This document shows, piece by piece, positions 1 through 44,520 of a stretch of DNA of 64,000 nt (its first letter is position 1; each line of letters opens with the position of its first letter). The notes under the pieces were generated by a model, which saw nothing but the letters and a program-made list of their open reading frames with translations, was not told the DNA's origin and searched no databases. A program made the position numbers and the translations under genes. The DNA is from Haematospirillum sp. H4485 (lineage in GTDB: Bacteria; Pseudomonadota; Alphaproteobacteria; Rhodospirillales; Rhodospirillaceae), in contig NZ_JAAVSY010000001.1 of NCBI RefSeq assembly GCF_012102745.1, positions 1 through 64,000 on the forward strand, written 5' to 3'.

Positions 1-83
1 CCCTTCCCGAACTCGGCCGTGAAAAACAGCTGCGCCAATGGTACTTTGCCTCAAGGCACGGGAGAGTAGGGCGCCGCCAGGTC
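1..83 (+). rRNA. rrf: 5S ribosomal RNA, 3' part
   Basis: The first ~83 bases match the conserved 3' two thirds of bacterial 5S rRNA: the CCGAACTCGG loop C/helix III segment near the start, then the GGTACT and GGGAGAGTAGG segments and the closing GCCGCCAGG end. The 5' part lies outside the window. It implies that a 16S-23S-5S operon ends here, reading left to right. No tRNA-fMet follows; a terminator comes about 45 bases later. The 3' end is placed by comparison with typical 5S genes and may be off by a few bases. Confidence 0.93.
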
Positions 84-3165: not shown

Positions 3166-3253
3166 TTTTCTTTATACCGTTGAAAAGAGTGGAACTTCCA
3201 TGTGGTCCGTCTAATATCGCGTTCCTTTGACGGGTTGCCATGCTGGAGGCCAT

Positions 3254-4150
3254 ATGATGCAGGCTGCTGTGTACAGTCGTCGTTCTTTTCTCAAGACGGT
3301 GTCCTTGTTTTCTGTTGTTGCATTGTCTCCGGTTTACGGAATGGCTGCACAACACTCATCTGCTGATGCGGTACAGCGTCTGTCAGATCTGGAAGGAACG
3401 TTCGACGGGCGCTTGGGGGTTTTTGCCTTTGACACGGGCAGTGGGGCTTCCCTCGCATGGCGATCCGAAGAGCGTTTCCCGGTTTGCAGTACATTCAAGG
3501 CATTTCTGGCTGCGGCAATTCTGCACCGTAGCACATCGGATCACGGGCTTCTGGACCGGGTGATATCTTATCCTCTGGAAGAGCTTGTCTCTTATTCTCC
3601 AGTGACCCAGCAGCATGTGCATTCCGGAATGCGTGTGCGGGATATGTGTGCCGCAGCCATCCAGTACAGCGACAACACGGCGGCCAATCTTCTGATGCGG
3701 ATTCTGGGCGGGCCTGATGCGGTTACCACCTTTATGCGTCAGGCAGGGGATACGGATTTTCGTCTGGACCGCTGGGAGACGGACCTGAATACAGCTATTC
3801 CCGGTGATCTCCGTGATACCTCAACACCGGTAGCTATAGCCCGAAGCCTGGACCGCCTTTTGTTTGGTGATGTGTTGTCAGATATGCATCGTGCCGTATT
3901 GCAGGACTGGTTGAAAGGCAACACAACGGGAGCATCCCGCATACGAGCCGGTGTTCCTGAAGGCTGGATGGTCGGGGACAGAACAGGCAGTGGGTCTTAT
4001 GGAACGGCCAATGCGATTGGTGTGCTGTGGCCTCCCGGCAGGAAGCCTGTGATCGCGTCTATTTATACGACCCAGCATTATCGTGAGGCTGTCTGGCGTG
4101 ATGACATCGTGGCCCAGGCTACCCGCATCATTGTTGACGGGTTGGCATAG
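3254..4150 (+). CDS. bla: Class A beta-lactamase
   Basis: A serine beta-lactamase of ~298 residues. All class A motifs are present: CSTFK (Ser70/Lys73), YSDN (SDN loop), WETDLNTA (Glu166/Asn170 omega loop) and DRTGSGSYG, where the KTG box is RTG. Arg at Ambler 234 is known from the CARB/PSE carbenicillinases; here it is only a sequence feature, not a proven spectrum. The N-terminus has SRRSFLK followed by a hydrophobic segment, a likely Tat signal peptide. GGAGG at 3245-3249 serves ATGs at 3254 or 3257; the latter has the better spacing. No LysR-type regulator is adjacent. Base composition matches the neighbours, so it looks like a resident chromosomal gene. Confidence 0.93.
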   Translation: MMQAAVYSRRSFLKTVSLFSVVALSPVYGMAAQHSSADAVQRLSDLEGTFDGRLGVFAFDTGSGASLAWRSEERFPVCSTFKAFLAAAILHRSTSDHGLLDRVISYPLEELVSYSPVTQQHVHSGMRVRDMCAAAIQYSDNTAANLLMRILGGPDAVTTFMRQAGDTDFRLDRWETDLNTAIPGDLRDTSTPVAIARSLDRLLFGDVLSDMHRAVLQDWLKGNTTGASRIRAGVPEGWMVGDRTGSGSYGTANAIGVLWPPGRKPVIASIYTTQHYREAVWRDDIVAQATRIIVDGLA

Positions 4151-36093: not shown

Positions 36094-37094
36094 TTATGGA
36101 TTTGGAACCAGCCGTTTGTCGTGAGGGGTCCTTGTTTCGTGCCTGTTGGCGTTGCCTGCCGTTGTAATGTGTGTGCTTTCCGTAATGCCGGAGCATTCCA
36201 GGATACGATGGCCCGTGCGGGCCTCAAAGTCATGGAACATGTGGTCCGGCAGGGAACCTGTGTCAGACAGGAACAGGCGGATATTCTGGGTGGATACGCG
36301 ACCCAGCCCGGATTTTTGCAACAGCTTCTCGTAGGAAGATGGTGTTCCCGTGAAGATGGTGCAGCGGGGTAGGCTGGCCAGAACGGTGTCTACGTTGAAG
36401 GAGGGAAGCCATATCATGCTTGCCCCCGCAAGCAAGGCGCAATGGCACCCGATAGACAGGCCATAAGCCTGAAACATGGGTACGGTATGCAGAACGATAT
36501 CCTGATCTGTGATATGCCACGCCTGTATGATGTTCTGCGCCACGGACAGTAGATTGCCATGGGATAGCAAGGAGCCACTCTGCTGTCCTTTGGCGTCAGA
36601 ACGATACGGTATGACTGCCGGGTCATCGGGATGACATTCCACGATCGGGAACTGATCTGATCCTTTGCTGCCATGAATGGCAAAAGTTCCGTTGTGATGT
36701 GTCCCCAAAGTCAGCACATGATGAATATCGAAGCGCTGCGCCAAGGCATGAAAGTGCTCTTCCTGTTCCGGTTCGACGATCAGGACCTGTGGTCTGGTGT
36801 CATGCAGATATGGTCCAGTGCCTGCCCCTCATGATCCGGGTTGATGGGGATAAAGACCACGCCCGCCCTCAGGCAGGCCAGATGAAGCAACAGAAGCTCG
36901 GGTGATTTTTGTACCCGTACGGCGATACGGTCACCTTTTTGCAGGTCAAGCCGGTACAGGCTGTCTGCATAGCGGGCCGACCATTCTGCTGCCATGGTCC
37001 AGGTGATGGTTCGACCACCGGGTGTATCCAGCAGAATACGATTCCCGTTGGCAGGTGATCGCGCGTATATGCTGGCGTAAAAAGAGCCTGTCAT
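36094..37094 (-). pseudogene. Acyl-CoA synthetase (MatB-like) remnant, frameshifted and truncated
   Basis: Two minus-strand frames join into the N-terminal ~330 residues of an AMP-forming acyl-CoA synthetase resembling malonyl-CoA synthetase. Piece 1 (37094-~36808) shows the GRTITWTMAAEWSARYADSL and KSPELLLLHLACLRAGVVFIP segments. Piece 2 resumes as LHDTRPQVLIVEP and continues to GHRILECSGITES. One base appears to be missing near 36805-36812. The ATP-binding motif usually YTSGTTGxxKG reads PYRSDAKGQQSG. The last ~170 residues, with the second adenylation subdomain and catalytic Lys, are absent. This is gene decay rather than a sequencing slip. Confidence 0.8.
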
Positions 37095-37326
37095 GAATCT
37101 TCTGCCTTTCCCCATGTGATGTCTGTTCTTTGTGCCCCCCGGCATCACATCCTATTTTACCTGGTTTCCTGGATCTGTCAGGTTTTTGGTATTGTCGATT
37201 ATCTCTGCTTGGTCGTGGCGCCATGTGTGCGGCGGGATTTTCATGCTACGGTGACCAGAAAGGAAATCACGGAGCTGAAGTCCGTATTCATCCGGGTTCA
37301 GTCTGTGCATGGGGATGGGGGATCGC

Positions 37327-41814: not shown

Positions 41815-42177
41815 GCAGAAACCTAGGTTATCGCAGTTCAGGTACGTTGTAGTGTGCTGCGCGATGGGAGACGGGAGAAAACAGAGCACGTTTTTACGGT
41901 ATTCTTCAAGCCTGTGCATCTTATGAATACAATCTGTACAGCTTCTGTGAAACGAATTATCTCAACATAAAGAAAAATTTGCCTTCATGCATTTCATAAG
42001 CAGATCCTTCCTGATCTGATCATTGCAATTGTTTCTCAGTCAAAATACTGCGGTGGAGTATTGGATGTATTTGTGATTGTATTCATGGCTCTGCACTGTT
42101 CCTTTCTCAGATGAATGCGGATTGTGCTTCAAAGGTTTTTCCGGCGTGTTTGATGTCTTTGCATCATGGGAGGGGAT
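41815..42177. other. AT-rich divergent intergenic region
   Basis: A 363-base gap between exoD (minus) and the five-repeat protein gene (plus), clearly more AT-rich than its surroundings from about 41930 to 42110. It probably holds promoters for both. I see short inverted pieces (agatc...gatct near 42001-42018) but no convincing operator or promoter pair. Confidence 0.4.
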
Positions 42178-44463
42178 ATGGGCACAGATCATGACACAAC
42201 TCTGCATGCTGCTGTCAGTGCTGAGCGCTCTTTGTCAGGTGTTGATGCGGATGGTAACGCCACCGGGATGTCCTATATTCCTTACCCTGCCGATTCTGTC
42301 TGGGAATGGCGCATCCCATACGTTCAAGGTACAGGGGACACCGCAGTCTATGGCGTTCAGGCTGATCGCCTTTCTTTTACCATTGACGGGCATAGCTATC
42401 ATGTTACGCGTGGTTCAGGTCCCAAGTTCTGGGACATCAATCGTCTTGCCGAAGACATGGAGACTGCGCTAAGCGGAAGCATGCATGAGGCGGCAAGGAT
42501 CAAGGTTACCCCGGATGGTCATTCTCTTCGGTTTATGAACATGGGTAGTGTCCGTATTGGCAAGGTCATAGCCCACCGCGATGATATTGGCAGTACAACA
42601 GAATTTCGTTTCAGTCCCGGTGAATTCAGGATCATGTTGGGCGACAATCCGCCAACCGAAGGGCCCGGTCGTGCCCTGCCACCTGTGCAGTATGCGCATG
42701 CATCTTTTCCGGGCCCTGATAGCGGGGCTGTATCCACGATGACATTCAGGTTGCCTCCATTATCCGATGGGCTGTCCCCAAAAGGCATGCAATTCAAGAT
42801 TGGTGGCCATGATGTCAATATTACCTTTGCCGGCGAGCAGGATGTTTTGGGGCTGTTCGCCAAGGCCCGTTTTGAAGTTGCTGCGGACAGTAATGGGGTT
42901 ATTACCATAAAAACAACGACCAAGGCTCCCATGGGGGCTGGGGAGGTAACTCTATCCAGGCCACCTGTTGCATTACAGATCCGGGATGGTGAACCTGGTG
43001 GTCTTGCGCTGGATCCTGTTCCATCTTCGATAACGCTTTCTGGCCTTTGGCCATCAGGTATACCGAACGGTGATGGGGGAGAGCCTCTCGACCTCAACAT
43101 TATTTTACGCAAGGGAGAAATACTGAGGGAATCTGTTCACATTGCAGTCGATTATCGTGAGAGTACCAGCCCTGACCAGCTGGTTGAGATCCTCAATCAG
43201 GCATTCGTGAATGATCCCCACGAACTTGTTGCGTCACTGGACAGCCAGAACAGGCTTGTTATCAGTAGCCCGGAAGGATTTATCTTCGAGCGTGTGACGC
43301 TTGTCATACCTGATGGGCGTGGTCAAGCCGACACAATTGGTGCCCAGACTGAGCCCGGCAAGCCGGGTGTTATCCCGCCGCAGGATACATCGTACCGTCA
43401 TTTGAATGAGCCTGCCTTGCAGAGAACTCTGCGTCTTGACCGGCAGTATCACGAGGGTGACGAGGCGTATGATCCTGCTGCCATTCCTGATCTGAGTCAG
43501 GATGCACCGTCCTTGCCCGGTGCATCCCGTATCCTGCAGCAGGATGGTGCAATGGCCTATGCACAGCCATCTTTTGCCCGGTTTGACCTGTCAGGTAACA
43601 CCATGGCGATGTCGGGATCTGGCAATTCCCCGCCAGATACAAGACCGGATTTGCTGATTGTGAATCTGCAGTTCCAGATCGGGGATGAGGCCGTTACGGT
43701 TCGGGATACATTTGCGACGCTTAAAGAAATCCAGCAGGCGGTCAACGATGCCATTCGGAGCAAGCCCGGGTTGGAGAATACCTTGGCAAAAATCAGTGAT
43801 GGTGCTCTTGTTATCGAGAATGCAGCCGCACAACCCTTTACGGCGGCTCATTGGTCCGTAACGCCGGCAATCGTATGGTCACCCGATATTCTGGACCGTG
43901 TGGACGGGCGTATGGCCTCAGACGCTGTGCCGTCTACTGCCTTTCTTGATATTGGTGCATATTCGGGGCATGCCTTGTCCCTGCCGTTTGAGTTTATCCA
44001 CCCTGTTCTCAGTTCACCGGGCGTTCTGCATATTCAGGCGCAGTCGTGGCGTACGCCAACTGAACTGGCCAATGTGATAACGCAGGCCGGCTCTGCACAC
44101 GGCATTACGGCATCCTTCCTTGTTGAGAGCAATATCGGAAAGATTATTTTGCAAGATCAGCACGGGCGTGATTTCCGGGCTGAGCGGATGACGGTTTCTG
44201 TCGAAATGCCAGACGAAAAGCACGAAGGTTTCGCTGGTGTCTGCCTGCCCTCATCTCATGGATATACCCCGGGGCCCATTACTTCGGACATTTCGGGGGA
44301 CTGGATTGACCTTGATGCTATGGCATGCAGAACAGAAGAACTGCCAACGGTTGCATCCAGCCTTGTAAAATCAGAGTTTGTCCAGGATGTCTTCGAGCTT
44401 CTGCCTGACGATATGAAAGCGGCTGTAGCATTTTTTGTACCAGAGTTCGCAGAGCTGCTTTGA
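42178..44463 (+). CDS. Orphan 761-residue protein with five weak internal repeats
   Basis: I do not recognise this protein. It has no signal peptide, no membrane segment and one Cys-poor, acidic sequence. Five regions share a pattern of beta-rich stretch, a short helix of the LAEDMETAL/LVEILNQAF/IQQAVNDAI/LANVITQAG type, then another beta pair with an N/D-G turn: about 64-130, 188-262, 304-378, 492-562 and 598-678. This layout recalls flagellin hook IN-type repeats or other surface beta-repeat domains, but identity is low. The middle (380-490) is Pro/Asp-rich, likely a linker, and the last 40 residues are acidic-helical. The ATG at 42178 has GGAGG upstream; ATG at 42166 does not. It is followed by a strong terminator and a convergent LdtR-like regulator. 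Confidence 0.8.
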   Translation: MGTDHDTTLHAAVSAERSLSGVDADGNATGMSYIPYPADSVWEWRIPYVQGTGDTAVYGVQADRLSFTIDGHSYHVTRGSGPKFWDINRLAEDMETALSGSMHEAARIKVTPDGHSLRFMNMGSVRIGKVIAHRDDIGSTTEFRFSPGEFRIMLGDNPPTEGPGRALPPVQYAHASFPGPDSGAVSTMTFRLPPLSDGLSPKGMQFKIGGHDVNITFAGEQDVLGLFAKARFEVAADSNGVITIKTTTKAPMGAGEVTLSRPPVALQIRDGEPGGLALDPVPSSITLSGLWPSGIPNGDGGEPLDLNIILRKGEILRESVHIAVDYRESTSPDQLVEILNQAFVNDPHELVASLDSQNRLVISSPEGFIFERVTLVIPDGRGQADTIGAQTEPGKPGVIPPQDTSYRHLNEPALQRTLRLDRQYHEGDEAYDPAAIPDLSQDAPSLPGASRILQQDGAMAYAQPSFARFDLSGNTMAMSGSGNSPPDTRPDLLIVNLQFQIGDEAVTVRDTFATLKEIQQAVNDAIRSKPGLENTLAKISDGALVIENAAAQPFTAAHWSVTPAIVWSPDILDRVDGRMASDAVPSTAFLDIGAYSGHALSLPFEFIHPVLSSPGVLHIQAQSWRTPTELANVITQAGSAHGITASFLVESNIGKIILQDQHGRDFRAERMTVSVEMPDEKHEGFAGVCLPSSHGYTPGPITSDISGDWIDLDAMACRTEELPTVASSLVKSEFVQDVFELLPDDMKAAVAFFVPEFAELL

Positions 44464-44484: not shown

Positions 44485-44520
44485 GTTGATCCTGAGCGGG
44501 TTTCTCCGCTCAGGATCAAC
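44485..44520. terminator. Bidirectional terminator hairpin
   Basis: A perfect 15-bp inverted repeat (44485-44499 with 44506-44520) with a 6-base loop, between the convergent five-repeat gene and the regulator gene. No T run follows on either side. Confidence 0.75.

Follow-up and report, generated by a model that had tools for sequence, protein, structure and literature searches.

Modules of the fold class shared by flagellins, the flagellar protein FliD and several phage tail proteins form the outward-facing parts of filaments and tails. An alphaproteobacterial protein, FlgK1 of R. sphaeroides, contains at least three Flagellin_IN motifs together with internal repeats in a central region that is required for swimming (PMC7277832). 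In Haematospirillum sp. H4485, an orphan gene was found that encodes a protein possibly built from about five such modules. It is located in the window analyzed here, i.e. the whole stretch of 64,000 nucleotides at the start of contig NZ_JAAVSY010000001.1. The features of the locus are listed in Table 1.

Table 1. Features of the orphan locus of Haematospirillum sp. H4485 (positions in the window)
Feature	Position	Strand	Description
AT-rich intergenic leader	41920..42177	+	Flanked by the divergent ExoD gene and the orphan gene; largely conserved in H1815
Orphan protein gene	42178..44463	+	761 aa, 81.7 kDa, pI 4.7; dN/dS 0.13 vs H1815
Module 1 (putative)	42283..42615	+	Residues 36-146; folded alone at pLDDT 76; predicted flagellin/FliD D2-D3 and phage tail-sheath fold
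Module 2 (putative)	42766..42981	+	About residues 197-268; predicted E-E-H-E-E; best sequence match is module 4
Module 3 (putative)	43009..43356	+	About residues 278-393; model matches flagellin D2/D3 and phage tail modules
Module 4 (putative)	43564..43968	+	About residues 463-597; model matches H. pylori FliD and phage tail-sheath domains
Module 5 (putative)	43963..44223	+	About residues 596-682; contains the sub-threshold Flagellin_IN match (629-658); sequence like module 3
C-terminal helical tail	44311..44460	+	Residues 712-761; predicted, low confidence
15-bp perfect hairpin	44485..44520	.	Separates the orphan gene from the MarR-type gene convergent with it; occurs only once in the genome

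The Orphan Gene and Its Distribution

The 761-residue open reading frame at 42178-44463 (+), proposed in the initial annotation, was borne out as a real, conserved coding gene under purifying selection. The sister protein in Haematospirillum sp. H1815 is 90% identical over the full length. Selection is indicated by a dN of 0.050 and a dS of 0.386 between the two orthologues (ratio of ~0.13) and by the position of the nucleotide differences, most of which fall at third codon positions (48, 34 and 169 at positions 1, 2 and 3, respectively). The GGGAGGGG stretch just 5' of the ATG at 42178 is a good ribosome-binding site, and the start region, this stretch included, is identical in the sister species. 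An alternative in-frame ATG is present upstream, at 42166.

The encoded protein is acidic, contains two cysteines and has no membrane segment. It had been described as lacking both a signal peptide and type I secretion repeats, and both statements hold. The N-terminus is not hydrophobic and shows no Sec signal, the mean hydropathy over 19 residues reaching at most 0.14 in windows starting at residues 1-59, and no RTX-type GGxGxD repeats were found. The protein also still fits no family, as scans against Pfam, PHROGs, NCBIfam and the PDB sequences gave zero matches over threshold. The nearest family, and the only one that Pfam returned for the full-length sequence, is Flagellin_IN (PF07196), at residues 629-658 (E 0.036), with 14.7 bits where the gathering cut-off is 22.7 bits. 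FliD_N and FliD_C are absent in a Pfam scan up to E=10, and Flagellin_N and rod/hook domains were likewise not found with Pfam. Family scans of the single modules gave nothing significant, the best PHROG match of a module being no better than E 0.15.

Judged from sequence comparison, the orphan gene appears to be restricted to the genus Haematospirillum, being seen only in the two Haematospirillum genomes compared. When ~85,000 species genomes were scanned with peptide seeds, a procedure that detects close relatives only, the sister species was the sole match. Order-wide (317 genomes), class-wide (385) and phylum-wide (398) searches, in sets that overlap in part, gave no further relative; the class- and phylum-wide ones matched the own genome only, the sister species not being among the genomes matched or drawn. 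The viral contigs, phages and plasmids searched contained no relative either, the best phage match being a single one at E=4. With a GC content of 53% (window, 56%), the orphan gene is close to its two neighbours (50-51%), and its base composition therefore shows no trace of a recent import.

Several weak matches were inspected and rejected. Among the frames read in relatives, one (L004) encodes an HlyD-like protein and another (L006) an acetamidase-like protein; the remaining ones are unrelated or stop-riddled, and none represents a relative of the orphan. An order-wide match (G124, E 3.5e-4) lies antisense to the ilvN/ilvC region and is spurious.

Genomic Context

The orphan is a single gene, with an ExoD-family gene diverging from it on one side and a gene for a MarR-type winged-helix protein (HTH_27) converging on it from the other. 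That it has an AT-rich leader of its own was confirmed, the 246 bases upstream having 38% GC compared with 56% in the window. Downstream, the "strong terminator" of the initial annotation was retained in part. The hairpin is stable (-41 kcal/mol, z -7.5) and kept in the sister species, where the loop and the last pair differ, but no T tract follows it on either strand; it is therefore at most a candidate bidirectional terminator. The "cell-wall-type regulator" is convergent, as described, and is the MarR-type protein; nothing tested links it to the cell wall.

The neighbours are housekeeping genes, and no flagellar, secretion, phage or tail genes lie beside the orphan. In five relatives, no counterpart of the orphan gene lies near the gene for the MarR-type regulator, and the relatives of this regulator in other genera sit beside different neighbours.

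Elsewhere in the window, at 36094-37148 (-), two successive ORFs cover residues 2-95 and 119-312 of a model for malonyl-CoA synthase that has 506 positions; the final third of the model is missing, which corresponds to a decayed acyl-CoA ligase gene. A class A beta-lactamase, nearest to the PEN-type models, is encoded at 3227-4150 (+) (330 bits against a cut-off of 200, NF033103). A partial 5S rRNA match is located at the window edge, at 1-82 (+).

Modular Organization and Predicted Fold

At the sequence level, the case for repeats is marginal. Three of the ten repeat pairs score above shuffles (R1-R2, z 2.9; R2-R4, z 4.0; R3-R5, z 3.2), and 5 of 100 shuffles of the whole protein gave a match as good as the best internal one, which starts from residues 196 and 496. 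Neither leave-one-out HMMs built from the repeats nor the scoring of FlgK gave anything significant, and the hhalign scores of the repeat pairs were near the shuffle range. At the level of secondary structure, the case is better: an E-E-H-E-E order, with two strands, a helix and at least two further strands, is predicted in all five regions, with low confidence outside module 1. The N-terminal 40 residues show no predicted helix; of the two termini, only the C-terminus has predicted helices (low pLDDT).

Structure predictions were built on two-sequence alignments, and the full-length model was poor (pLDDT 35.6, pTM 0.24). Module 1 folded alone reached a pLDDT of 76.4 and a pTM of 0.67, with only two of the five models near that value (76.4 and 69.7). 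The 48 structural matches that rank highest for it belong without exception to flagellar or phage-tail/virion proteins (Z 7.4-4.4), including FliC, FlaA-D, FliD, tail sheaths and the T7 gp12 nozzle; the first unrelated fold follows at Z 4.2. In the full-length model, the regions 37-155, 278-393 and 463-609 each match outer domains of flagellin/FliD as well as phage tail domains. The Z scores of these fold-class matches, ~5-7.4, all lie below 8, a range that may reflect merely a common arrangement, and a common fold says nothing on function. For module 1, the top ranks of Foldseek and the viral library show the same kinds of protein (all E > 0.001), with Ig-like folds lower down. No fold outside the flagellar/phage-tail class was prominent in the comparison of module 1 and of the full model.

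Based on these models, the fold class of the flagellin/FliD D2/D3, phage tail-sheath and T7 nozzle domains is assigned with moderate confidence. The structural matches cover the regions of modules 1, 3 and 4, while modules 2 and 5 are represented by the E-E-H-E-E prediction. The five repeats initially described are thus supported by the secondary structure in five of five regions and by the fold class in three of five, but only marginally by sequence. The suggested likeness to flagellin hook IN repeats is partly supported at the fold level, by three regions and by the sub-threshold Flagellin_IN match.

Possible Function

Our best guess, made with low confidence, is a secreted or surface protein in the form of a string of modules. 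In it, a small strand-strand-helix-strand-strand module would recur about five times in diverged form, with linkers rich in Pro, Gly and Asp between the copies and a short helical tail at the end. As in their look-alikes, the modules could act as outward-facing spacer or contact domains, and the protein might serve as an extracellular or surface-associated spacer or adhesion protein. Export would take place without a Sec signal, perhaps via a flagellar or type I route. The spacer or adhesion role is proposed because of the analogy with the outward-facing look-alike modules and with R. sphaeroides FlgK1. Taken as a whole, this explanation, a genus-restricted five-module protein with an extracellular or surface role and non-Sec export, is held tentatively, as possible rather than probable. 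The initial proposal of a surface or flagellar structural protein with an unusual export route is conjectural: a flagellar core domain, flagellar or secretion genes alongside and a recognisable export signal were all looked for and not found.

Chance might also account for the resemblance: the protein could be beta-rich and either fast-evolved or of de novo origin, its "repeats" being alike in secondary structure only. The self-similarity reached in shuffles and the pLDDT of ~36 of the full-length model are in agreement with this; the single fold class obtained from three separate regions and the fairly good model of module 1 alone make it rather doubtful. As a serious alternative, the gene may derive from a phage gene encoding tail modules, which the genus has domesticated and retains for a function in the cytoplasm or bound to a particle. 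In favour of this, the domains of tail sheaths, the T7 nozzle gp12 and baseplate J-like proteins fit module 1 as well as flagellar ones do. This origin is nevertheless rather unlikely in view of the housekeeping neighbours, the absence of tail genes alongside, the lack of relatives in the phages and viral contigs searched and the lack of a credible PHROG match for the whole protein or the scanned modules.

The flagellar genes of the genome bear on another explanation, a flagellar accessory protein, for example one at the filament tip or one resembling a sheath, in a lineage where no FliD cap can be recognised. The own genome encodes flagellin and FlgK, yet FliD_N and FliD_C were not detected in it by profile search. 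None of ten genomes (the own and nine relatives; G000-G005, G036-G039) gave a FliD_C match, although nine of them have flagellin-type proteins. The resemblance of the modules to FliD D2/D3 points in the same direction. However, relatives outside the genus without detectable FliD_C also lack the orphan gene, which argues against a general replacement, and a cap role is therefore not favoured. The protein also has no Flagellin_N, FliD or rod/hook domain, and its N-terminus is predicted (at low confidence) to lack a helix. Such an accessory role is considered quite improbable.

If the modules and the surface location of the favoured spacer or adhesion protein are true, the flagellin/phage-tail module class would be used here as a free-standing multi-module protein. 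It would also give a specific surface protein and a marker gene to Haematospirillum, a little-studied genus that can infect people (PMC12704522) and includes an emerging human pathogen. The more specific claim, that a genus-specific surface- or filament-associated protein, made only of flagellin/phage-tail-type modules, exported without Sec and encoded outside the flagellar gene set, puts this module class to a use of its own, has in our view a slim chance of being correct. For now, the orphan is a taxonomically restricted protein that is well documented and for which the proposed fold is plausible.

Comparison with Known Systems

The orphan protein resembles the Flagellin_IN (PF07196) modules of flagellin, FlgK and FliD in its small beta/alpha modules with N/D-G turns, predicted to belong to the same fold class. 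Unlike the proteins containing these modules, it scores below the family cut-off, no D0/D1 core was found in it and its gene lies outside the flagellar genes. It shares an alphaproteobacterial origin with FlgK1 of R. sphaeroides (PMC7277832), the several IN motifs with internal repeats being those of FlgK1. In contrast to this hook-associated protein, the orphan revealed no such core, and its genome has its own FlgK. With phage tail sheaths and T7 gp12, no sequence relation was found, and there is no phage context; the model of module 1 superposes on the tail-sheath and nozzle domains at Z 6-7.
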